A stretch of DNA of 46,462 bases, taken from Candidatus Latescibacterota bacterium. Lineage in GTDB: Bacteria > Latescibacterota > UBA2968 > UBA8231. Positions within the stretch are counted from its first letter, which is position 1; the number at the start of each line of letters is the position of its first letter. The notes below the pieces were generated by a model that saw nothing but the letters and a program-made list of their open reading frames with translations, was not told where the DNA came from and did not search any database. The DNA lies in the NCBI GenBank assembly GCA_009691525.1, contig SICG01000008.1, positions 1 to 46,462 of the forward strand. The letters are read 5' to 3'. The translations under genes were made by a program, and so were the position numbers. Below, piece after piece: positions 518 to 43,485 of the stretch.

Positions 518-1264
518 TCAGCCCACCCGCTTCCCCCCGCGCAATACCGGCACCTGGTCGCCCCAGGCCTGGCCGGTGTGTTTGGCGATCAGGTGGGGCA
601 CGTGGTACTGGGGCACGAACCCGCGCCGGATGCTGTCGGCCGAGATATTGGGCCCGCTCTTGTGTAACATCAGCGAGCTGAAGATCGCCACCTGGCCGGC
701 GCGCATCTCCACCGGGATGGCACCGCTTTCGTCGGCAAACTGAGCCGTCTTCCCTCCGTAGCGTTCAGCGGTTTCAGGTTCCGGGATATGCTCCAGCAGT
801 CCCCACTTGGGCGAGCCGGGGATGATCCAGATGCAGCCATTGTCCAGATTGGAGTCGGTGATGGCCGTCCAGCAGGTGATATACTCCAGCGGCTCGGTAT
901 GTACGTACCCCGAGTCCTGATGCCAGGAGAAGATCCGGCCCCGCTCCGGGGGTTTGGTCGCGGCCTGGTTGTAGTACAAATCGGCGTCTGGACCTACGAA
1001 GCGCCGGCAGGCCTCTTGGTAGATGGGCTCTTGAACGAATTGGGCGGCCACCGGACTTAGCAGATGGAACTGGCTGTAGGAACGCCGGTTCCGCACCGCC
1101 TCTACCGCCGCCGCGTCGCCGCCGGTCCTGGCCTGATCTAAGTGTTCCCGGTACACCCGGTCCATCTCCTCGCTCATCACCTGCAACAGCGCCGGGGCAA
1201 AACCACCCTCGGCGACAAAGTAGCCCAGTTCGCCAAACTGCGTTGCCTGCTCCTCGCTGATCAT
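518..1264 (-). CDS. Phytanoyl-CoA dioxygenase (PhyH) family oxygenase
   Basis: This 248-residue protein belongs to the Fe(II)/2-oxoglutarate dioxygenase superfamily, PhyH branch. The iron triad is visible: H115 and D117 in WHQDSGY, and the distal H201 in SSLMLHKSG. R213/R214 follow and are candidates for binding the 2-oxoglutarate carboxylate. The central stretch CWTAITDSNLDNGCIWIIPG is typical of the family. Its ATG overlaps the stop of the upstream 4Fe-4S/NuoB-like gene by 4 bp (ATGA, 1261-1264), so it is probably translationally coupled to the membrane complex operon. The substrate cannot be told from sequence; PhyH proteins hydroxylate many small molecules. It is the last gene of a run that appears to start at 10333. 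Confidence 0.88.
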   Translation of the reverse strand: MISEEQATQFGELGYFVAEGGFAPALLQVMSEEMDRVYREHLDQARTGGDAAAVEAVRNRRSYSQFHLLSPVAAQFVQEPIYQEACRRFVGPDADLYYNQAATKPPERGRIFSWHQDSGYVHTEPLEYITCWTAITDSNLDNGCIWIIPGSPKWGLLEHIPEPETAERYGGKTAQFADESGAIPVEMRAGQVAIFSSLMLHKSGPNISADSIRRGFVPQYHVPHLIAKHTGQAWGDQVPVLRGGKRVG

Positions 1265-2037
1265 ACCCTGCCCTCCTCCTTCAATCTGCCCAGCAACCTC
1301 AATAATCCATCCAGCATGGTGAGCGGATGGGGCGGACAGCCAGGGATGTACAGGTCCACGGGCACCAGGCCATCGGCCCCGTTGTTGACCTGATCGTGGT
1401 CGATATAAGGACCCCCTGAAATGGCGCAGGCCCCCACGGCGATGACAATCTTCGGCTCTGGCACCGCGTCGTACGTCTTCTGCAGCGCCAACTTCATATT
1501 CTGGGTGACTGGCCCGGTGATCAACAGCCCATCGGCGTGGCGCGGCGAGGCCACCACCTGGATGCCGAAACGGCTCAGGTCCCAGCCCACGGTGCTCAGC
1601 ACGTTCACATCGGCCTCACAGGCGTTGCAGCCTCCGGCGCTCACCTGGCGCAATTTCAGCGAGCGGCCGAAGAGGCTTCTCAATTCGCCATCCAGCGCGG
1701 CAGCCAGCTGCAGTTGCTGGTCCTGGGCGAGGACCAGGTCCCCGCGCTGACGCACCGCCAGGCGGTAGTCACCCGCATAACTGATGGCCCCCTCGGGACA
1801 GGCGTCGCGACAATCGGTGCAGAACAGGCACCGGCCCAGGTCTACACTCACCTTTTCCGCGATGGTGATGGCATTGGTCGGACAGGCCTCGGCACAGGCG
1901 CGGCAGCCTGTCGGACATTTGGCGGCGTCGATCAGCGGGCGGCCGCAGAAGCGCTCCGGCATCTCCGGCGGCGGCCCATCCGGGTAGGCCATGGTGCGGT
2001 GCCCCTGTTGCAGTCGGGCGAGTATCACCTTGTACAT
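1261..2037 (-). CDS. Ferredoxin/NuoB-like fusion (HyfH-HyfI-like) electron-transfer subunit
   Basis: This 258-residue protein joins two subunits that are usually separate. Residues 41-85 carry two 4Fe-4S motifs: C41, C45, C48, C52-P and C70, C73, C76, C80-P. The first has a three-residue gap between its first two Cys, unlike the classic CxxCxxC. Residues 133-255 are a NuoB/hydrogenase-small-subunit domain with C137, C140, C204 and C234 (GGCNAC, VGACAISGG, IPGCPPHP), the ligand set of the proximal or N2-type cluster. It would pass electrons from a soluble donor to the NuoD-like subunit on the cytoplasmic face. ATG 2037 is chosen because GAGAGGTG stands just before it, 13 bp after the upstream stop. 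The open frame continues upstream only inside the neighbouring gene. Confidence 0.88.
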   Translation of the reverse strand: MYKVILARLQQGHRTMAYPDGPPPEMPERFCGRPLIDAAKCPTGCRACAEACPTNAITIAEKVSVDLGRCLFCTDCRDACPEGAISYAGDYRLAVRQRGDLVLAQDQQLQLAAALDGELRSLFGRSLKLRQVSAGGCNACEADVNVLSTVGWDLSRFGIQVVASPRHADGLLITGPVTQNMKLALQKTYDAVPEPKIVIAVGACAISGGPYIDHDQVNNGADGLVPVDLYIPGCPPHPLTMLDGLLRLLGRLKEEGRV

Positions 2038-2050
2038 GGCACCTCTCTCA

Positions 2051-3583
2051 TCATAAATCGTGCCCACAGTAGGACAAATTGAAACTCTTGTTGCACAGCG
2101 GGAAGTCGGAAATCTGTTGGTTGCGCAGGGCGTAGGCCAGGCCGGGCCAGTTGTGGAACGAGGGATCGACGACCTTGTAACGGGCAAAACGCCCCTGCCC
2201 ATCGGTGAGGGCCACGTGGCAGACCTCGCCGCGCCAGCCTTCGCAGAGGGTGACGACCAGGCGATCAGAGGCCAGCGGACCCAGCGGGGTCTGCACCGCA
2301 CCGGTCGGGATGGCGCGTAACTGCTCCCGGATAAACTCGATGGATTGCTGGATCTCGAACCAGCGCACGTACGCGCGGGCCAGCACATCGCCGGTATCGT
2401 AGGTGGCGATGGGAAGGTGGGCAAAGCGGTAGATGCTCGAAGGCTGGTCCTGGCGCACATCGCGGGCCAGGCCCGAGGCCCGGGCCGCCGGGCCGACCAT
2501 GCCCAATTCGACAGCCACCTCCTGCGGCAAGGGCCCGGTGTCCTCGAAGCGGGCCATGACCGAGGAGGTGTCCCAGAGCAACTCAACGGCGACGGTGGCA
2601 TCCTTCTTGGCTGCGTCGAGCCGGCGCAGCAGTTCAGCAACCAGGGCCTCATCGACGTCGAAGCCCACCCCGCCGGGCCGGATCATACCGCGCCCGAAGC
2701 GGTTGCCGCAGAGCAGGGCGGTCATGTTGAGAAAGTCGCCGCGGATGCGGCCGCAGTACGAGGCCGTGGGCAGAAAGCCAACATCGTTGGCCAGCGCCCC
2801 CAAGTCGCCGACATGGTTGGCCAGGCGCTCCAGCTCCAGGGCGATGCCGCGCAGGGACTGGGCCCGGGCCGTCTTCTGGCAGCGGGCCAGGGATTCGAGC
2901 ACCTGGCAGTAAGCGGTGGTATGGGCGATGGTGGTGTCCCCCGCCAGGGTCTGGGCATAGTGGAGCGAGCGCTTGTCCGGGCCGCCGATCAGGGCTTCCT
3001 CGACGCCCCGATGCTGGTAGCCCAGGGCGATTTCCAGATGGAAAACCTTCTCGCCGTGGCACTGAAAGCGAAAATGGCCCGGCTCGATGACACCGGCGTG
3101 TACCGGACCGACCGCTACCTCGTGTACCTCGTCTCCCTCGACCTGATAGAAGTCGCCCACTGCGGGCAGGATAGGCTGGTCCGGCGCCCGGTCCCAGGCG
3201 TCGCGGCTCGTCCACGAGCGGCGGTACCGCACGGGTTTGAACCACGGATGACCGACCGCCTTGAGCCCGAACTGCTCGGCGATCTCCCGCTCGAAGAGCT
3301 GCACCTGCGCACAGGCTGGGGTCAGCGAGGGAAACCGTGCGCCGGCGATCTCGGTCCGGCCGGCGAGCAACTGATTCTGCTCGTCGTCGGCGAGCACCAC
3401 ATAGAGCTGGGTCGCGCCGGGGCGATCGCCCGCCGCGCCGAAAAGCGCCGCGACCCGCTGCCCGGCGGCCACCGCCTCGAGAATGGCGCGCCCGAAGCCA
3501 TCGGGCGTCAGGGTCGGCACTGCCTCCAATTCGATGGCTCGGCCGTTGCCCATTATGGCCAGGTCGGGAGGATTCTCAGTCAT
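2051..3583 (-). CDS. hyfG: NuoC-NuoD-like (HyfG-type) large subunit lacking NiFe ligands
   Basis: This 510-residue fusion has a 30-kDa NuoC-like part (about 1-130) and a 49-kDa NuoD/hydrogenase-large-subunit part (about 150-510). The family landmark VGPVHAGVIEPGHFRF is at 158-173. In true group 4 NiFe hydrogenases the next block holds a CxxC pair and the C-terminus a DPCxxC pair. Here the first reads TLAGDTTIAH (212-221) and the last VDPSFHN (about 472-478), so all four nickel-binding cysteines are missing. The subunit should therefore not be a hydrogenase. It resembles the Ehr (energy-converting-hydrogenase-related) complexes and NuoD of complex I. The start overlaps the upstream HyfF-like stop by 4 bp (3580-3583). 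Confidence 0.92.
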   Translation of the reverse strand: MTENPPDLAIMGNGRAIELEAVPTLTPDGFGRAILEAVAAGQRVAALFGAAGDRPGATQLYVVLADDEQNQLLAGRTEIAGARFPSLTPACAQVQLFEREIAEQFGLKAVGHPWFKPVRYRRSWTSRDAWDRAPDQPILPAVGDFYQVEGDEVHEVAVGPVHAGVIEPGHFRFQCHGEKVFHLEIALGYQHRGVEEALIGGPDKRSLHYAQTLAGDTTIAHTTAYCQVLESLARCQKTARAQSLRGIALELERLANHVGDLGALANDVGFLPTASYCGRIRGDFLNMTALLCGNRFGRGMIRPGGVGFDVDEALVAELLRRLDAAKKDATVAVELLWDTSSVMARFEDTGPLPQEVAVELGMVGPAARASGLARDVRQDQPSSIYRFAHLPIATYDTGDVLARAYVRWFEIQQSIEFIREQLRAIPTGAVQTPLGPLASDRLVVTLCEGWRGEVCHVALTDGQGRFARYKVVDPSFHNWPGLAYALRNQQISDFPLCNKSFNLSYCGHDL

Positions 3584-5013
3584 GGCCTATCCTCCATAAA
3601 GTGGACCGCGTCGGTGAGCAACGCCTGCAGCGACGAGGGCATGTAGAGGCCCAGTATCAGGACCAGGGCCAAAAGCACCACCAGCGGTGCGCCGGTGAGC
3701 AGGCTGTCTCTATAGGGTGTGTCGCGCACCTCCGCGGGCGCGCAGCCCTGCACCACCTGCAATACCGTCGCCCCCATGCCGATGAAAATCACCAGCAGGA
3801 AGAAAAGAAAGAGTCCACCGACGACAAATTGCCCGGCGGCAAAAGCCCCGCTGAGGATGGCGAACTCACTGACGAAGGGGCCAAAGGGCGGCGAGCCGGT
3901 GATCGCCATGAAGCCGGCCAGGAAGAGCGTTCCCGACAGGGGCAACCGGCGCATGGCTCCGCGCACCTGGTCGATGCTCTTGCTGCCGTAGGCGCGGTGG
4001 ATATTGCCGGCGGAGAGAAAAAGCACGCCCTTGGTCAGGCCATTGGTCAACACGTGTAACAGGGTGCCAAAGAGGGCCGGGCCACCGATGCCCAACCCCA
4101 GGACCAGGATGCCCATGTGTTCGACGCTGGAATAGGCGAGCATGCGTTTGATATCGCGCTGGCCGACCAGAAAAATACCGGCGACGGCCATGGAGAAAAG
4201 CCCCATGAAGAGCAGGAGCCGCGAGATGTAGGCGCTCTCCCCGGCGGCGCAGCAGATGTGGTAGATACGCAGCACCGCCAGAAACGCACAGCTGGTAAGG
4301 CCGCCGGCGAAGATAGCCCCGGCGATGCCGGGCGCTTCCCCGTAGGCGTCGGGCTTCCAAGTGTGCATCGGGGCCAACCCCATCTTGGTGCCGTAGCCGA
4401 CCAGCAACAAAATAAAAGCGGCATGTAACCAGGGTTTGGACAGTTTCGGCGCCTCGCGCAGCAGATCCTCCAGCGTCAGCGAGGTCTCCAAGCCGCCGTG
4501 TAGGGCCGCATAGGCGAGGAAGAAGGTGCCCAGCAGGGCCAGAGCAATGCCGATGGAGCCGACCAGCAGGTATTTCCAGGTGGCCTCGATGCTGCGCTGG
4601 GTCTGGTTGAAGTAGATAAGGGGCGCAGTGGCGAGGGTGGCCGCCTCGATGGCCACCCACATCAGACCCAGGTGGTGCGACCAGATCACCAGACTCATGA
4701 CGCCGAGAAAGGCCAGCAGGCAGGCGCAGAAAACGCGGTTGGGCCGTTCTGCCCGGTGTTGCAGATAACCCACCGCATAGATCGAGCAGAGCAGGAAGAG
4801 CGTGGTGACCAGGAGCAGGATGATGCGGCCGGGCGGATCGAGGACCAGCCAGGCGGAACTGACCCACAGATCGGGCCGTCCCAGCACCAAAAAGCTGATG
4901 CCCGTATGCGCCAGAGCCGCGACCGGCAGCAACCAGGGACGCCAGCGGTTCGAGGGCAAAACCGCAGCAAGGGCGGCCATGAGCAGCGGCAGAAAGATCT
5001 GGACGAAGGCCAT
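3580..5013 (-). CDS. hyfF: HyfF-like / NuoN-type antiporter-like membrane subunit
   Basis: A 477-residue hydrophobic protein with about 14 predicted membrane segments, of the proton-translocating NuoL/M/N and Mrp-antiporter family. The region GYGTKMGLAPMHTWKPDAYGEAP holds the conserved lysine and histidine of the half-channel, and GQRDIKRMLAYSSVEHMGIL is the signature that follows the broken helix. An acidic residue in WVAIEAATLATAP is at the place of the conserved Glu of membrane segment 5. It would pump H+ or Na+ as part of the complex. It sits between hyfE-like and hyfG-like genes, 3 bp from the former and overlapping the latter. Confidence 0.9.
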   Translation of the reverse strand: MAFVQIFLPLLMAALAAVLPSNRWRPWLLPVAALAHTGISFLVLGRPDLWVSSAWLVLDPPGRIILLLVTTLFLLCSIYAVGYLQHRAERPNRVFCACLLAFLGVMSLVIWSHHLGLMWVAIEAATLATAPLIYFNQTQRSIEATWKYLLVGSIGIALALLGTFFLAYAALHGGLETSLTLEDLLREAPKLSKPWLHAAFILLLVGYGTKMGLAPMHTWKPDAYGEAPGIAGAIFAGGLTSCAFLAVLRIYHICCAAGESAYISRLLLFMGLFSMAVAGIFLVGQRDIKRMLAYSSVEHMGILVLGLGIGGPALFGTLLHVLTNGLTKGVLFLSAGNIHRAYGSKSIDQVRGAMRRLPLSGTLFLAGFMAITGSPPFGPFVSEFAILSGAFAAGQFVVGGLFLFFLLVIFIGMGATVLQVVQGCAPAEVRDTPYRDSLLTGAPLVVLLALVLILGLYMPSSLQALLTDAVHFMEDRP

Positions 5014-5016
5014 GGC

Positions 5017-5658
5017 TTATTCCTGGAGCGCGGCCAGCTGGCGCGTGTCCATCGAGGAAAAAGCCTGGTTGATGTGGTTGACGATGATGCAGATGACAAA
5101 GATGCCGACGAAGAGGTCCAGCAGCACCCCCATCTCGACGACGAAGGGCATCACCTCGACCAGCAACATGCCAAAAATGAAGATGCCGTTTTCGAGGACC
5201 AGGTACCCGACCACCTGACTGAGCGCCTTATATCGGGTGGTGAGCAAGATGAAGCCGACCAACACCGTGGCGATGGAAGCGGGGACCAACAGGGTGCCGG
5301 TATGCTGAGGGGCCAGGGGCAGTTGGTCGGCAAAGAGCAGCGCGGCACCGGTGGTCAGGGCACCCAGCATGATGGAGGGCAGCAGACCGATCAGGGGCTC
5401 CACCTCGCGTTTGATCTGGGCGTCGCGCAGCGCCCGGATCATGATCCCCGGAATGGCGAAGCCCTTGAGGAGGATGGTCGCCACCGCGATCAGCAACATC
5501 GACGGGCCGTGCTGCGGATGGACCAGCAGCGGGATGAAACTCAGCAACACGCCCTGCGCGGCCACGGTGCGGATCACCGCCACGATCCGGCTGGTGCCCA
5601 GGGCAAAGAGGTTCATCGCCAGGACGACCACCAGAATGGCATTGAGCAGGCTGATCAT
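5017..5658 (-). CDS. hyfE: HyfE-like (NuoK-related) membrane subunit
   Basis: A 213-residue membrane protein with about six hydrophobic segments. Its place in the operon, its length (E. coli HyfE is of similar size) and blocks such as YLVLENGIFIFGMLL identify it as the HyfE/NuoK-like subunit. The Glu in LVLEN is the residue expected in the NuoK-type channel. It is 3 bp from the next gene and 4 bp from the preceding one, so expression is surely joint. Confidence 0.85.
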   Translation of the reverse strand: MISLLNAILVVVLAMNLFALGTSRIVAVIRTVAAQGVLLSFIPLLVHPQHGPSMLLIAVATILLKGFAIPGIMIRALRDAQIKREVEPLIGLLPSIMLGALTTGAALLFADQLPLAPQHTGTLLVPASIATVLVGFILLTTRYKALSQVVGYLVLENGIFIFGMLLVEVMPFVVEMGVLLDLFVGIFVICIIVNHINQAFSSMDTRQLAALQE

Positions 5659-5662
5659 CGGG

Positions 5663-6571
5663 TTATCTCACCAGCAGGAGGAAGCCAAAGCCGCAGCAGA
5701 GTATCGCCGCAGTTAATAGATAGGGCACATACCGCATCTGGAGCCGCGCCATCACCGATTCTATCACCCCGATCGCGGCGGCCAGCCCCAGCATCTGGGC
5801 GGCGAAGAGCAGCCAGTCGATCCAGACCTCGCCAACCCGAAAGGGAACCACCACATGTAAGAGCACCGCGCCGAGGATAAAGAGTTTGAGGGCGGCAGCA
5901 TAGAGGATCACGCCGAAGAGCGGCCCGCTGTGGTCGAGCACCATGACCTCATGGATCATGGTCAACTCCAGGTGGGTGTTCGGATCGTCGACAGGGATGC
6001 GGCAAGTCTCGGCCAGCAAAATCACAAAAAGACCGATGGCCACCAGCGTCAGCGGCGCGGCCACTGCTGCCGCGAACCCGCCGGCCGGGCCCTTCAGCAT
6101 CTGGACCAGGGTCAGCGAACCTGAAATCTTGGCCAGCACCAGAAAAGCGAAGATCAGCGCTGGTTCAGTGAGGCAAGAGAAGGTCACCTCGCGGGCCGCC
6201 CCCATGCCTTCGAAAGCAGAGCCCGTATCCAGCGCCGCTGCCGTGGTCAAGAAACGCGCCAGCCCGAAAAGGTAGGCGAAGAGGATCAGGTCGCCGGTGA
6301 AGGAGAGCGGCGCTCGGGAACTACCGATAGGCACCAGCAGGCCGGCCAGCCCCACCGCCGCCAGCGCAACCACCGGACCGAGGCAGAAAACCCAGGTCGT
6401 CGTCCAGCTCAGCACCAGGCCTTTGCGCATCAATTTGTACAGGTCGTAGTAGAGCTGCAACAAGGGCGGGCCCTGGCGGCCGCCGAACCAGGCCTTGGTT
6501 TTGTTGATTACCCCCAGCAGCAGGGGCGGCATAACCAGCATCAGCGCAATCTGCATAGCCCGCTCGATCAT
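5663..6571 (-). CDS. hyfC: HyfC-like / NuoH-type membrane subunit
   Basis: A 302-residue membrane protein of the NuoH/HycD/HyfC family, which anchors the peripheral arm and lines the quinone or ferredoxin coupling site. Visible marks are GGRQGPPLLQLYYDLYKL near the N-terminus (cytoplasmic loop), FEGMGAAREVTFSCLTEPAL in the middle, and ETCRIPVDDPNTHLELTMIH with the acidic residues typical of the family. The length fits. Its start overlaps the HyfB-like stop by 4 bp (6568-6571). Confidence 0.92.
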   Translation of the reverse strand: MIERAMQIALMLVMPPLLLGVINKTKAWFGGRQGPPLLQLYYDLYKLMRKGLVLSWTTTWVFCLGPVVALAAVGLAGLLVPIGSSRAPLSFTGDLILFAYLFGLARFLTTAAALDTGSAFEGMGAAREVTFSCLTEPALIFAFLVLAKISGSLTLVQMLKGPAGGFAAAVAAPLTLVAIGLFVILLAETCRIPVDDPNTHLELTMIHEVMVLDHSGPLFGVILYAAALKLFILGAVLLHVVVPFRVGEVWIDWLLFAAQMLGLAAAIGVIESVMARLQMRYVPYLLTAAILCCGFGFLLLVR

Positions 6572-8547
6572 GGTTCAACCCCCATCGCCCCCCAGACAAA
6601 GAGAAAGATCACCATCACGAGCATGTAGAGCACGTACCGGTGGGTCTGCCCCTGCTGCAGGAAACGCAGCCGCGGGAGACAGCGGTTGGCCAGGCTGAAA
6701 AAGGGCAGGACAAGATGATCGAGCACCACATCGGGAACGAAACTCTCAAAACGGGCTGGCCGGGAGAAGATCCCCCGAATGGCCGGCCACTGCTGCCGCG
6801 GCCGGAGAAAAAGCGCAAAGAGGTGGACCAGCATCTGCCCAAAGGACGAGCCGGTGTACTGCATGCGCCGGATCGGCTGGGCATAGCCGCAATCCCAGGT
6901 GCCGGCCTCCCGGAGGAGTGTAACTCGCGGCAACATCCTCAGGGCCCCCCACAGCAACCCCACCAAGCCCAGGAGGGTCACTCCGAGGACGGAAATCCAC
7001 TTCAAGGGCGCCAGCGCCGCGATGGAGGGATGCTGTGGGCCGGACAGACCCGCCCAATCCCGCACCGCCCTCTCCAGCAAGGGCGTGGCGAGCCAGGGAA
7101 AGAGGCCGAGGACGATACAGCCGGCCGCAGTGATTATCATGGGAAAACGCATACTGAGGCCGGGATCACTCCCCTGCGCGCCGGCCTCCCCTCGCGCCGT
7201 GCCGAGAAAAACCACCCCCAAAAGTTTCACGAAACAGGCAAGGGCCAGGGTGCCGATCAGGGCCAGCACCACCGCCGCCACTGCCGCCGCCGGGAATCCC
7301 GCGCCGCTCGGGTCCAGGGTGCGGAACAAGCCGACATAGAGCAGCCATTCACTGGCAAAGCCGTTGAGCGGCGGCAGCGCACAGATGGCAATCGCACCCA
7401 CAGCAAAAAGTACTGCCGTCTGCGGCATGACCTTGGCCAGCCCGCCTAGACGGTCCAGTTGGCGGGTGTGGGTGGCGTGAATGACGGCGCCGGCATTGAA
7501 GAAAAGCAGCGGTTTGAAAAGGCTGTGGTTCCACACATGCAGCAGCGCCCCGCCCAGGCCCAGCACCACCCAGTCCGGCCGGCCCAGCGCCCGGCCCAGC
7601 AGGGCCAGCCCCAGGCCCATAATGATGATGCCGATGTTTTCGATGCTGCTGTAGGCCAAGAGCCGCTTCAGGTCGCGCTGGCCGAGGGCCAGGGCAATGG
7701 CGGCCACGCCGGAGATCGCGCCCACCGTCAGCAGCACCCCGCCCCACCAGTCGGCCGCCACCGGCAGAAGCGCGGTCATGCGCACCATGCCGTAGATCCC
7801 CATCTTGAGCATGACCCCGGACATCACCGCCGAGACGTGGCTGGGGGCGCTGGCGTGGGCGCCGGGCAGCCAAATGTGCAGCGGCATGAGCCCGGCCTTG
7901 AAGCCAAAGCCGACCACCGTCAGGCCAAAGAGGATTCCGGCCAGTTCCACCGGCACGGCCCTTGCCGGCACCAGCGCCAGCGAACCGGTCGCCCGGTGCC
8001 ACAGGGCAAAGAGGGCGATCAGGCAGAGGGTGCCGGCGTGGGTGGCGATCAGATACACCCAGCCGGCGCGGCGGACTTCCTCGCTGTCCTCCTCGACGGT
8101 CGCCGCAAAGAAGGCGGCCAGCGCCATCACCTCCCAGGCGATCAGCAGCAGCACACCATCGCGGGCGATAACGACCAGGGCCATGGCGCCGGCCAGCGTG
8201 CCGTAGAACAGGCTCAGCCGGCGGCCGTTCTCGGGATGTGCGGCCGCTGGCCAGTACCCCAGTCCGTAGATGGACCCCAGGACCGGGACGACGAACACCG
8301 GCACCAGAAACAGGGCACTGAGGGCGTCGACCGCCACGGTAAACTGGCCCCAGGGCAGGGCCCAGGTGGGGGTCTCCCCGGCGCTGAGCGCAGCCCCTAC
8401 CCCAACCAACCCGGTCAGGCCGCCCAACACCATCAGCAGTACGGCCAGCCGCTGCCCCACCGCCGACCTGGCCGGGAACAGGCAGCCAGGCAGGCCGCTG
8501 AGGCCAAACATCGAGATCGCGGCGAGAATCAACCAGATGCCCAACAT
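6568..8547 (-). CDS. hyfB: HyfB-like / NuoL-type antiporter-like membrane subunit
   Basis: A 659-residue, strongly hydrophobic protein and the first subunit gene of the complex. It belongs to the NuoL/HyfB/HycC family. The segment WEVMALAAFFAAT contains the conserved channel glutamate. GFGFKAGLMPLHIWLPGAHA and VMSGVMLKMGIYG supply the half-channel lysines, and GQRDLKRLLAYSSIENIGII is the family signature. It begins 11 bp after the upstream HTH/EIIA gene. Together with the HyfF-like protein it gives the complex two putative ion-pumping subunits. Confidence 0.92.
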   Translation of the reverse strand: MLGIWLILAAISMFGLSGLPGCLFPARSAVGQRLAVLLMVLGGLTGLVGVGAALSAGETPTWALPWGQFTVAVDALSALFLVPVFVVPVLGSIYGLGYWPAAAHPENGRRLSLFYGTLAGAMALVVIARDGVLLLIAWEVMALAAFFAATVEEDSEEVRRAGWVYLIATHAGTLCLIALFALWHRATGSLALVPARAVPVELAGILFGLTVVGFGFKAGLMPLHIWLPGAHASAPSHVSAVMSGVMLKMGIYGMVRMTALLPVAADWWGGVLLTVGAISGVAAIALALGQRDLKRLLAYSSIENIGIIIMGLGLALLGRALGRPDWVVLGLGGALLHVWNHSLFKPLLFFNAGAVIHATHTRQLDRLGGLAKVMPQTAVLFAVGAIAICALPPLNGFASEWLLYVGLFRTLDPSGAGFPAAAVAAVVLALIGTLALACFVKLLGVVFLGTARGEAGAQGSDPGLSMRFPMIITAAGCIVLGLFPWLATPLLERAVRDWAGLSGPQHPSIAALAPLKWISVLGVTLLGLVGLLWGALRMLPRVTLLREAGTWDCGYAQPIRRMQYTGSSFGQMLVHLFALFLRPRQQWPAIRGIFSRPARFESFVPDVVLDHLVLPFFSLANRCLPRLRFLQQGQTHRYVLYMLVMVIFLFVWGAMGVEP

Positions 8548-8558
8548 GGTCGAGGCCT

Positions 8559-9248
8559 TCAGCTACTGCTTGAGACGGGCAATGCGGTTTCGGCGCGCGC
8601 TACCGCCTCCATTAGTTCCTCTAGCGAGGCCTGCCGCTTGAGTACGGCCTTGAATTCCCGATTTTGCAGCACAAAACTCAGTCGCGACAACATGTGGAGA
8701 TGGGCCCGCACCGTGGGGCTGATCAGGGTGAACAGGGTGTTGATCAGCTGGCCGTCGATGGCGCGAAAATCTATGGGGTGTTCTAGAAAGCACAGGGTGA
8801 TGGTCGGCCTGGAGAGATGTAAAACAACGGGATTGCGCACGTGAGGGATGGCGATGCCGTCGCCGATGCCCGTGGAGCCAAACATTTCGCGCGCCTGCAG
8901 CACCTGGTAGAGAAACTCGCGATCGACCTCTTCGGGCAGCTTGAGCGCCTCGACCAGGGCGCGCAGGACCGAAGATTGGTCATGCCCCCCGACCCGATAC
9001 ACCACCCCACCGGCCTTCAGCGCTTCGCAGAGGCTGGGCAGGGGCTCTTTGTTGGTCTCACCCTCGAGAAAAATTTCCGAAGAAACCTGAAGGCGCTGGG
9101 CCGTGGCCCACTCCAGCAGCTCCGACCGGTTGAAGCGAAACTGCTCGTTGACTCGATAACAAGGAATGGTTTCCTGCTTGATCCAACGGTAGATTGTCTT
9201 TTCCGATACCTTCAGCAAGCCGGCAACATCTTTGACTGAAAGTCGCAT
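8559..9248 (-). CDS. Helix-turn-helix / PTS EIIA (PtsN-type) fusion regulator
   Basis: A 229-residue protein. Residues 1-55 are a MerR/excisionase-like winged helix (LSVKDVAGLLKVSEKTIYRW, then FRFNRSELLEW). Residues 68-225 are a PTS EIIA type-2 domain with the PtsN-like motif GSTGIGDGIAIPHVRNP. H136 is the predicted phosphorylated histidine. No EIIB or EIIC is present, so a regulatory role is likely. ATG 9248 is chosen because it overlaps the ddl stop by 1 bp (TGATG). The longer frame to 9653 only runs through ddl. Lying 11 bp upstream of the membrane complex genes, it may control their expression or activity; that link is inferred from position. Confidence 0.85.
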   Translation of the reverse strand: MRLSVKDVAGLLKVSEKTIYRWIKQETIPCYRVNEQFRFNRSELLEWATAQRLQVSSEIFLEGETNKEPLPSLCEALKAGGVVYRVGGHDQSSVLRALVEALKLPEEVDREFLYQVLQAREMFGSTGIGDGIAIPHVRNPVVLHLSRPTITLCFLEHPIDFRAIDGQLINTLFTLISPTVRAHLHMLSRLSFVLQNREFKAVLKRQASLEELMEAVARAETALPVSSSS

Positions 9249-10333
9249 CACAGCACCGTGCGGATATCCTGCCGATCGCGATGGCGGTCCAGGGCCAGCT
9301 GGATCAGGCGGTCGATCAGCGCTGGGTAGGCGACGCCGCTGGCTTCCCAGAGCTTGGGGTACATGCTGATGGGGGTAAATCCCGGCAGGGTATTGATCTC
9401 GTTGACGTAGACTTGCTCGTCCCGGCGGCTGACGAAGAAGTCCACCCGGGCCAGGCCGGCGGCCTCCACGGCGCGAAAGGCGCGCAGGGCCAACTCGCGC
9501 ACCAGGGCGGAGGTGGCCGGCGAGAGGCGCGCCGGGATGATCAGCTGGGAGTTGTCGTCGATGTACTTGGCGTTGTAGTCGTAGAACTCGTTGCCCGGCA
9601 CCACCTCCCCCACCACCGAGGCCTGCGGTTCCTCGTTGCCCAGCACCGAACACTCCACCTCGCGGCAGTCGCTAGCCTCGGCCTCGACCACCACCTTGTA
9701 GTCATAGGCGGCGGCTTCCTCCAGGCAGGCACGAAACTCCTCCGGGCCATGAGCCTTGCACACCCCTACGCTCGACCCCATGTTGGCGGGCTTGAAGAAC
9801 ATGGGGTAAGCCAATTGGGGTTCGAGCCGTCGCTGCACTGCGGCTGGGTCCTGCCGCCACTGATGGCGCCGCACCACCGCGTACTCCACCTGGGGCAGAC
9901 CATCGGCGCGGAAGGCCCGCTTGGTCATCTCCTTGTCCATACCCACCGCAGACCCCACCACCCCCGAGCCCACATAGGGGATACCGGCCAGTTCCAGCAA
10001 TCCCTGCACCGTGCCGTCTTCGCCGAAAGGGCCGTGCAACAAGGGGAAGATCACATCGAGTTGCTGATCCAGTGCTCCTCCCTGGCGGGCCATCAGAGCC
10101 CCACCCTGTTCCAGGACCACCGGCAGCAGCCCCTGCTCCTCGACCACCCCGGCCTGCAGCACCGCCAGCGCATCGCCGGCCATCAGCCAGTGGCCTCGTT
10201 TGGAGATGCCGATCATGGTCAGTTCGTACTTGTTGCGGTCGATGGCCTCCAGCACTGAGCGGGCCGAGCGCACCGAAACCTCGTGTTCGCAGGACCGCCC
10301 GCCGAAGAGCAGGCCCACGCGGATTTTTTTCAT
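9248..10333 (-). CDS. ddl: D-alanine--D-alanine ligase
   Basis: A 361-residue ATP-grasp ligase that makes the D-Ala-D-Ala dipeptide for peptidoglycan. It starts with KIRVGLLFGGRSCEHEVSV, the usual Ddl N-terminus with the substrate-binding Glu. MFFKPANMGSSVGV is the ATP-grasp lysine and glycine/serine-rich loop. FYDYNAKY carries the tyrosine found in D-Ala-D-Ala ligases at this loop, and VYVNEINTLPGFTPISMYPKLW holds the metal ligands and the closing motif. It is the first gene of the leftward run and probably supplies the promoter. Finding it ahead of a respiratory-type complex is unusual. Confidence 0.95.
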   Translation of the reverse strand: MKKIRVGLLFGGRSCEHEVSVRSARSVLEAIDRNKYELTMIGISKRGHWLMAGDALAVLQAGVVEEQGLLPVVLEQGGALMARQGGALDQQLDVIFPLLHGPFGEDGTVQGLLELAGIPYVGSGVVGSAVGMDKEMTKRAFRADGLPQVEYAVVRRHQWRQDPAAVQRRLEPQLAYPMFFKPANMGSSVGVCKAHGPEEFRACLEEAAAYDYKVVVEAEASDCREVECSVLGNEEPQASVVGEVVPGNEFYDYNAKYIDDNSQLIIPARLSPATSALVRELALRAFRAVEAAGLARVDFFVSRRDEQVYVNEINTLPGFTPISMYPKLWEASGVAYPALIDRLIQLALDRHRDRQDIRTVL

Positions 10334-41857: not shown

Positions 41858-42400
41858 ATGTACGTCGCTAGCAAAATGTTTCTGACCAAAGGCATCGGCC
41901 AGCACCGCGAAAAGCTAGTCAGTTTCGAGTTGGCCCTGCGCGATGCCAGCCTCGCCCCATACAATCTGGTGCGAGTCTCCAGCATCTTTCCCCCCCATTG
42001 CGAGATCATTCCCATCGATGACGGGGTCAAAGAACTGAAACCCGGGCAGATCGTACACTCGGTCATCTCCGAGTGTTCCAGCGACGAGAACCACCGCCTG
42101 ATCGCCGCCTCAGTCGGGGTCGCCATCCCCCGCGACCGCGACCAGTTTGGGTACTTGTCCGAGCACCACGCCTATGGGCAGGATCAGAAGGTGGCCGGCG
42201 ACTACGCCGAGGATCTGGCCGCCCAGATGCTGGCCACCATCCTGGGCATCAAATTCGACGCCGACCAGAGCTATGACGAGCGCCTGGATCTGTGGAAGTT
42301 GAGCGAAAAGATCGTCCAGACGCAGAACATCACCCAGACTGGGATAGGGCAGAACGGCCTGTGGACCACGGTACTGGCCGCCGCCGTGCTCTTGCAATGA
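41858..42400 (+). CDS. pdaD: Pyruvoyl-dependent arginine decarboxylase
   Basis: A 180-residue enzyme that makes agmatine from arginine. The self-cleavage site is S41-S42 in [12 protein letters not shown]: the second Ser becomes the pyruvoyl group, and the chain splits into beta and alpha parts. [15 protein letters not shown] and [21 protein letters not shown] with HHAYGQ are the other conserved blocks. AAGGAG lies 9 bases upstream. It overlaps the DHS-like gene by 4 bp, so the agmatine is probably used in a polyamine path with that enzyme. Confidence 0.93.
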
Positions 42401-43485
42401 GCAGTTTTCTCCAGGGGCGCTCCATCCGGCCCCAGCCCATCACCCCGCAGACCACCCTCACAGGGCTGGTGGACGAGACCTTCCTGGCCTACAACGCCGC
42501 CCGCCTGCGGGAGGCCTGCTGGCTCTACACCCGCAAGATGCTGGAGCCCGATGTGACCGTGGGCCTGAGCATCACCGGGGCCCTGACCCCGGCGGGACTG
42601 GGCATGTCGGCCTTCATCCCCCTAATCCAGAACGGTTTTGTCGATTGGATCGTCAGCACCGGGGCCAATCTCTACCACGACGCCCACTTCGCCCTGGGCC
42701 TGGAGATGCACGTGGGTTCGCCCACCCTCGACGACCGCCAGTTGCGCCAGCAGGGGGTGGTGCGCATCTACGACATCCTCTTCGACTACCAGGTGCTGCT
42801 CTCCACCGACGCCTTCTTCCGCGAGGTGCTGCGGGCCGAGGAGTTCCAGCGCGAAATGTCCACCGCCGAGTTCCATCATCACATCGGCAAATACCTGCGC
42901 GAACGCGAGAAGGCCCTGGGGGTCCAGCGTCTGAGCCTGCTCTCGGCGGCGCACGAGGCGGGCGTGCCGGTGTACACCTCCTCGCCGGGGGACAGCTCCA
43001 TCGGTATGAACGTCGCCCGCCTGGCCCTCGATGGCAGCCGGCTACGCCTCGACGTGGCCCGCGACGTCAACGAGACGGCGGCCCTGGTGCTGGGGGCCAA
43101 ACGCAAGGGCAAAAGCGCGGTGTGGATCTTGGGCGGGGGCTCGCCCAAGAATTTTGTGCTCCAGACTGAGCCGCAGATCCAAGAAGTCCTGGGCATCGAC
43201 GAGGTGGGACACGATTACTTTTTGCAGATCACCGACGCCAGGCCCGACACCGGCGGGCTTTCGGGGGCTACTCCTGCCGAAGCAGTGACCTGGGGCAAGG
43301 TGGACCCCGACAAACTGCCCGACACCGTCATCTGCTACACCGACTCGACCATCGCCCTGCCCATCCTCACCGCCTACGCCCTGGCCAACCACGCCCCGCG
43401 GCCACTCTCCCGCCTGTACGACCAGCGCGAAGCCCTCTACGCCGATCTGGTGCGGGAATACCAGCAGGCGCAGGCCGGAAAATAA
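42397..43485 (+). CDS. Deoxyhypusine-synthase-like protein
   Basis: A 362-residue NAD-dependent aminobutyl-transferase-fold protein of the deoxyhypusine synthase family. The catalytic lysine is kept: K251 in LGGGSPKNF, matching the GGGxxK spacing of true [26 protein letters not shown] and [14 protein letters not shown] are the NAD-site blocks, and [14 protein letters not shown] contributes to the substrate pocket. Bacteria lack eIF5A, so it must have another acceptor, such as a diamine (homospermidine-like product) or an agmatine-derived compound. Coupling with arginine decarboxylase supports a polyamine role. Confidence 0.9.

Follow-up and report, generated by a model that had tools for sequence, protein, structure and literature searches.

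A rebuilt large-subunit pocket and a candidate HTH-EIIA switch in the Ehr-type complex of a Latescibacterota genome

We analysed 46,462 nucleotides (the window) of contig SICG01000008.1 from a Candidatus Latescibacterota metagenome-assembled genome (MAG; 4.0 Mb, 84% complete), which carry an operon for an Ehr complex together with its regulator gene on the minus strand (9248-1261). All four cysteines that would bind the NiFe centre of a hydrogenase are replaced in its large subunit (EhrL), and the pocket at their place, as read from the alignment, is neither hydrogenase-like nor quinone-like. In most relatives the operon is headed by a gene that fuses a helix-turn-helix (HTH) domain to an enzyme IIA (EIIA) domain of the phosphotransferase system (PTS), and a direct repeat precedes this gene in many of them. 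Our tentative explanation is that Ehr is a ferredoxin-fed ion pump that reduces a small polar acceptor other than quinone. Published Ehr complexes are described as lacking Ni/Fe ligands and as having Mrp-antiporter-like subunits, with function listed as unknown (PMC6349859, PMC10284858); the missing ligands and the unknown function are also recorded in PMC7304191. The family is, therefore, already known, and what is new here is the character of the pocket, the HTH-EIIA gene with its operator, and the loss of a promoter and a pump in the window's copy.

Identity and distribution of the complex

The assignment to Ehr made in the original prediction is supported, and Ehr is the correct family for this complex given the missing ligand cysteines, the matching gene set and the position of EhrL in the tree. 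All 29 of the sampled type-1 large subunits, including those of Geobacteraceae, form one clade with 100/100 support that stands apart from hydrogenases and NuoD, and two type-2 sequences (one from G025, the other from the second operon of locus L109) join it with 100/100 support; "type 1" and "type 2" are labels coined in this analysis. HycE/HyfG is the sister of the Ehr clade (99/98), and NuoD falls elsewhere in the tree. The window's EhrL is 56-60% identical to homologues from Geobacter, Geomonas and Pelobacter. A family-alignment search of GTDB genomes yielded at least 576 confirmed relatives, of which 80 loci were kept, so that Ehr is widespread, occurring in Planctomycetota, Verrucomicrobiota, Spirochaetota, Geobacteraceae, Myxococcota, Acidobacteriota, Omnitrophota, Elusimicrobiota and others. 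The gene set (HyfB-, HyfC-, HyfE- and HyfF-like genes, the large subunit, and a ferredoxin domain joined to the small subunit) keeps one order in almost all of the 80 loci. Within the window's phylum, type-1 Ehr is present in 3 of 64 genomes; the nearest relatives of the window's sequence beyond its genus are planctomycete, making horizontal transfer likely. Two loci depart from the common layout: in a Verrucomicrobia MAG a divergent type-2 operon lies directly 3' of a type-1 operon (L109:12521-19886), and at L081:3529-11524 the locus is split, its membrane genes being divergent from the large- and small-subunit genes and the regulator lying just upstream of the large subunit.

In the window the regulator gene comes first and is followed by HyfB-, HyfC-, HyfE-, HyfF- and HyfG-like genes and a ferredoxin-NuoB/HyfI fusion (Table 1), a single gene that combines the functions of HyfH and HyfI. 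The six-subunit set that had been called intact does consist of six intact open reading frames with counterparts of HyfB, HyfC, HyfE, HyfF, HyfG and HyfH/HyfI, but one of two tandem HyfB-type pumps has been lost. Similarly, the span first proposed for the complex, 518-8547, contains all six Ehr genes but takes in a PhyH gene and leaves out the regulator. EhrL is the only PF00346 protein in the window's MAG; congeners hold additional complex I-like copies. Lysine and glutamate residues of the membrane-arm pump subunits are conserved across loci, and dN/dS values of 0.12-0.28 against congeners indicate purifying selection on the orthologous operon genes, and hence that the window's operon is still under constraint. 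A Pfam scan of the 46-kb window detected neither hyp nor fdh genes nor any other evident redox partner, so that the hypA-F maturation genes, named beforehand as evidence that would speak against Ehr, are missing from the operon and its surroundings. HypD was likewise not found in seven Ehr genomes, which include the window's MAG, G025 and an isolate, Rectinema; the congeners G001 and G003 possess it.

A rebuilt pocket in the large subunit

Residues 212-221 of EhrL (TLAGDTTIAH) align exactly with RVCGICGFAH of HycE, as had been predicted for the first CxxC motif. The second predicted counterpart, VDPSFHN for DPCxxC, is rejected by the alignment, which sets it against HycE CRAATYAN, about 30 residues before the true motif. 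The actual counterpart is the C-terminal NLSYCG, where N502-L-S504-Y-C506-G507 corresponds to HycE D529-P-C531-Y-S-C534. Nevertheless, the claim that all four ligand cysteines are gone holds, because HycE C241, C244, C531 and C534 become A214, T217, S504 and G507, and no ligand cysteine is left in the alignment, C506 occupying the serine position between ligands. The original prediction is thus partly confirmed. EhrL terminates three residues past G507 (NLSYCGHDL), leaving no C-terminal maturation extension. The register of this alignment is supported by its independent recovery of published HycE residues (C531, E193, D529, R478 and S283; PMC9474812), and true group 4 hydrogenases of the same phylum (L007-L011) retain both cysteine motifs in the same pipeline.

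Conservation of the pocket was scored over 81 type-1 large subunits. G215, D216 and H221 are invariant in 81/81, as are N498, K499, S500, F501, L503, S504, Y505, G507, D509 and L510 in the C-terminal motif. Two hydrogenase residues are retained, E167 (HycE E193, the proton donor of the beta1-beta2 loop) and R451 (HycE R478, the canopy arginine), and the canopy aspartate D529 is replaced by N502. The quinone-site residues H224 and Y273 of NuoCD correspond to I166 and G215, each of which is invariant in all 81 sequences. In EhrS, the proximal-cluster ligands C144-x2-C147, C211 and C241 (numbering of the 265-residue translation) are kept in 96% or more of the homologues that align there, a CxxC...C...C pattern that, on alignment, is of the hydrogenase type and unlike those of complex I or MBS. 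Complex I has an adjacent cysteine pair at this cluster, and MBS has a three-cysteine cluster with one ligand lost, together with two of the four NiFe cysteines retained (PMC7684303). Together, the pocket residues and these ligands argue against a catalytic proximal cluster and a standard quinone site, and the pocket would suit a small polar substrate.

A single-chain AlphaFold model of EhrL has a pLDDT of 87.8, and its best PDB match is HycE (7z0s_E, TM 0.86). Five cysteines (C175, C277, C292, C497 and C506) are nearly invariant in type 1 and absent from the two type-2 sequences and from hydrogenases. We considered whether they might form a single new metal site and rejected the idea, given that C277 and C292, lying 15 residues from one another on one predicted helix (271-292), would be about 22 Å apart and cannot share a site.

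An HTH-EIIA regulator and its putative operator

The HTH-EIIA gene lies directly upstream and heads the operon in 48 of the 61 loci for which that stretch is available; over all 80 loci, with flanks of up to 10 kb, it is the only recurrent neighbour, although the open reading frame calls are noisy in GC-rich loci. Among 64 genomes of the window's phylum, full-length HTH-EIIA occurs only in the three that carry type-1 Ehr. The phospho-histidine motif is intact in the window's regulator (GIGDGIAIPH, His137), and the corresponding GxGxAxPH motif is conserved in 53/56 homologues. We found no link between PTS or EIIA and Ehr in the open-access literature.

A TGTC-N6-TGTC direct repeat is present within 200 bp before the regulator in 24/52 loci, compared with 0.27 (maximum 2) for shuffled sequence, and other spacings from 5 to 25 give 0-4 matches each. 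In 1.31 Mb of loci, 26 of 45 matches to the repeat fall in a single 100-bp bin before the regulator start codon. The consensus is roughly TGTCCAnAAWTGTCYAW, with TGTC cores fixed by site selection, and its carriers belong to Latescibacterota, Spirochaetota, Verrucomicrobiota, Planctomycetota, Acidobacteriota, Myxococcota and Omnitrophota. The repeat of G001 and G003 begins in a TTGACA box, after which a box resembling TACTAT or TTATTA follows at a spacing expected for a promoter. The ehr operons that lack the regulator have no exact TGTC-N6-TGTC upstream, and their best weight-matrix scores are under the 10.5-bit null level. Our initial k-mer guess of an inverted repeat was rejected, the signal being a direct repeat. 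We also rejected a wider regulon: a stricter form of the operator has 20 matches over 22 whole genomes; 11 matches lie at an ehr promoter, and the nine remaining matches are comparable to the total of 10 for the reversed control pattern, so that the switch looks local. Based on these patterns, HTH-EIIA is a candidate for a dedicated regulator acting on this putative operator, to which it is predicted to bind. A second, diverged HTH-EIIA gene lies directly upstream of the first in G003 (L037:14493-15161) and at two other loci (L053 and L067).

Rearrangement of the window's copy

In G001, ddl and the regulator are separated by about 110 bp that hold the promoter and operator (L036:12548-12661). 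In the window the TGA stop of ddl and the ATG of the regulator share bases (TGATG) and the promoter/operator site is gone, and G002 is similar; given the overlap, the operon follows on directly from ddl in the window's genome. Comparison of these junctions indicates that the promoter and operator have been deleted there and the operon fused behind ddl. The pumps also differ among congeners, with G001 carrying two tandem HyfB-type genes (L036:7833-11836), the window retaining only the second copy (EhrA-2, 76% identical to that of G001) and lacking EhrA-1, and G003 retaining only the first (76%; L037:11602-13554). In G002, fragments of the EIIA, large-subunit and small-subunit genes run together in a single reading frame that one TGA interrupts (L039:9597-10217), and the PhyH gene downstream is intact, a structure that we read as the scar of a whole Ehr operon. 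An error in assembling the MAG could also have produced the rearrangement seen in the window.

Function and rival explanations

In the explanation that we prefer, and which we hold to be plausible but somewhat short of probable, type-1 Ehr would be a redox pump that sits in the membrane and resembles complex I. Reduced ferredoxin would be the most likely source of low-potential electrons, which would enter at the 2x[4Fe-4S] domain of EhrS and pass to the hydrogenase-type proximal [4Fe-4S] cluster. A small, polar, non-quinone acceptor would then be reduced at the former NiFe site, in a pocket built of the invariant D216, S504, N498 and K499 beside the retained E167 and R451, and the energy would be relayed through the HyfC carboxylates to the HyfB and HyfF pumps, moving H+ or Na+. 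In most relatives, the adjacent HTH-EIIA protein may switch expression through the 10-bp-spaced repeat at the operon promoter, thereby making expression depend on PTS phosphorylation and hence on the supply of phosphoenolpyruvate (PEP). HPr and the 2-oxoacid:ferredoxin oxidoreductase family are both present in 23/23 genomes searched, 22 of which bear Ehr.

Several observations weigh against this explanation. No substrate has been assigned to any Ehr in the open-access literature that we found, where Ehr is either linked loosely to formate or described as being of unknown function, and the case for ferredoxin as the probable donor is drawn from domain content and genome co-occurrence; 2-oxoacid:ferredoxin oxidoreductases also occur in 10/14 control genomes. 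D267, which in complex I is the partner of the quinone histidine, is retained in EhrL, and the beta1-beta2 loop and the C-terminus have low confidence in the single-chain model. The window's genus has two MqnA/MqnD-type genes, meaning that a quinone acceptor is possible there. Finally, the operator is missing from 28/52 upstream regions, including those of Geobacteraceae and the window.

The retained D267, conserved as in NuoD, and the MqnA/MqnD-type genes are also what one would expect if Ehr were a ferredoxin:quinone oxidoreductase like photosynthetic NDH-1 or Fpo, with menaquinone reduced in a chamber that takes the place of the NiFe centre, and the closest folds to EhrL are indeed HycE and complex I NuoCD/NuoD. 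We nevertheless consider this unlikely because the histidine and tyrosine ligands of quinone are an invariant isoleucine and glycine in Ehr, the proximal cluster is not of the complex I type, and Ehr is also found in genomes without recognisable menaquinone synthesis. Nine Ehr genomes, among them the Rectinema isolate, contain no MenB above the cut-off and no MqnA/D; since most of the nine are MAGs, any one absence is weak evidence and the weight lies solely on the overall pattern. The UbiA family (PF01040) proved too broad to be informative as a test for quinones, and MenB and MqnA/D were used instead. A reaction running in the opposite direction, in which the proton-motive force would drive the reduction of ferredoxin by a less reducing donor bound in the EhrL pocket, seems very unlikely. 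The energy-converting relatives of Ehr are all reversible in principle, and a polar pocket would suit a soluble redox substrate, but enzymes that produce reduced ferredoxin are already present in all genomes tested.

Three other proposals draw on known relatives or on decay. A formate dehydrogenase might dock to Ehr and give or take electrons, as in the FDH-Ehr complex proposed for Riflemargulisbacteria and Saganbacteria (PMC6349859); in addition, Geobacter sulfurreducens grown on formate has higher levels of Ehr subunits (PMC7894505), and HycE/HyfG is the sister family of EhrL. This link is quite unlikely, given that the window has no fdh gene, that fdhA with nuoE/nuoF-like genes is absent from the window and is not a recurrent neighbour in the 80 loci (unlinked copies were not searched for), and that HTH-EIIA is the sole neighbour that does recur. 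Among characterised complexes derived from hydrogenases, MBS alone has lost NiFe and reuses the chamber for another substrate (PMC7684303), raising the idea that Ehr reduces sulfane sulfur or polysulfide. There is only a slim chance of this, since MBS requires a three-cysteine proximal cluster and a hydrophobic chamber and retains two NiFe cysteines, whereas Ehr has hydrogenase-like CxxC spacing, has lost all four NiFe cysteines and has gained Asp, Lys and Asn in the pocket. Finally, the loss of the catalytic metal site and of one pump copy in the window would fit a redox-dead remnant, its peripheral arm serving as a scaffold and its membrane arm as a regulated ion channel or antiporter; this is extremely improbable when the Fe-S ligands and invariant pocket residues are strongly constrained across phyla and the orthologous genes of the window are under purifying selection.

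That at least seven phyla use HTH-EIIA and the head-to-tail 10-bp repeat to tie a ferredoxin-fed ion pump to PEP and the PTS, and that its active site is of a new type that converts a small polar non-quinone substrate, is doubtful as a joint proposition. If true, an active site of Asp, Ser, Asn and Lys with the old proton-donor Glu would carry out a reaction new to the complex I superfamily. The HTH-EIIA gene and its operator provide a concrete handle for predicting when the complex is produced and which signal, PTS phosphorylation, may control it. Moreover, the residue evidence disfavours the easy guess that Ehr reduces quinone with ferredoxin and favours a soluble polar substrate; if confirmed, such a substrate would mark a new branch on the evolutionary path from hydrogenase to complex I.

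Features of the locus and its surroundings

The PhyH gene that overlaps the end of EhrS was rejected as a part of Ehr, this adjacency being confined to the window's genus (1/80 loci, L040, together with three congeners). Elsewhere in the window, a transposase-like remnant with in-frame stops lies at the contig end (1-400, minus strand), and a gene for pyruvoyl-dependent arginine decarboxylase adjoins one of the deoxyhypusine-synthase family (41858-43485), likely reflecting polyamine metabolism.

Table 1. Features at and around the ehr operon, with positions in the window.
Feature	Position	Strand	Basis and remarks
ddl (D-Ala-D-Ala ligase)	9248..10333	-	Pfam Dala_Dala_lig; junction compared with congeners; context, outside the complex
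Regulator, HTH_17 (excisionase/MerR-like) + PTS EIIA-2 (PtsN/fructose type)	8559..9248	-	Pfam/NCBIfam
EhrA-2-like antiporter subunit, HyfB/NuoL type, 659 aa	6568..8547	-	NCBIfam PRK06521, Proton_antipo_M
EhrB, HyfC/NuoH-like membrane anchor with conserved E-channel-type carboxylates	5663..6571	-	PF00146; conservation
EhrC, HyfE-like membrane subunit	5017..5658	-	NCBIfam PRK11492, under curated cut-off; K, E, N, D residues conserved
EhrD, HyfF-like second antiporter-type subunit	3580..5013	-	NCBIfam PRK06458, Proton_antipo_M; conservation
EhrL, large subunit, NuoC+NuoD/HycE-like, 510 aa, without NiFe ligands	2051..3583	-	Domain search, alignment, AlphaFold model
EhrL residues 212-221, TLAGDTTIAH, replacing RVCGICGFAH	2921..2950	-	Alignment
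EhrL residues 472-478, VDPSFHN	2150..2170	-	Aligns about 30 residues upstream of second motif
EhrL residues 498-510, NKSFNLSYCGHDL, replacing DPCxxC motif	2054..2092	-	Alignment
EhrS, 2x[4Fe-4S] ferredoxin domain fused to NuoB/HyfI-like domain	1261..2037	-	Pfam/NCBIfam
PhyH-type 2-oxoglutarate dioxygenase, overlapping the EhrS stop	518..1264	-	PF05721; outside the complex

Comparison with known systems

The closest described counterpart is the Ehr of Geobacter sulfurreducens (GSU0739-0745), which has the same gene set and no NiFe ligands, identity having been compared through related species. Relative to Geobacteraceae Ehr, the window has a single HyfB-type subunit and an appended PhyH gene; the Geobacteraceae loci do not have the operator of other phyla, and the window has lost it by deletion. 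Ehr shares E193, R478 and the CxxC proximal-cluster pattern with formate hydrogenlyase and hydrogenase 4 of E. coli (HycE and HyfG, group 4a [NiFe] hydrogenases), but it lacks their CxxC pairs and C-terminal maturation peptide and does not require maturation genes. With complex I (NuoCD/Nqo4 and NuoB) it has in common the fold, the membrane arm and the conserved aspartate (D267); it differs in having neither the quinone His/Tyr nor an NADH module, in proximal cysteines that are not adjacent, and in a separate loss of NiFe on the tree. The sulfane-sulfur reductase MBS of Pyrococcus is, like Ehr, derived from a hydrogenase that has lost NiFe, whereas its two retained NiFe cysteines and three-cysteine proximal cluster are not seen in Ehr, for which ligation is read from sequence. 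The regulator resembles PtsN/EIIA-Ntr and other EIIA-2 proteins in its EIIA-2 domain and intact phospho-histidine motif, but is distinguished by a fused N-terminal HTH_17 DNA-binding domain and by its place at the head of ehr operons.

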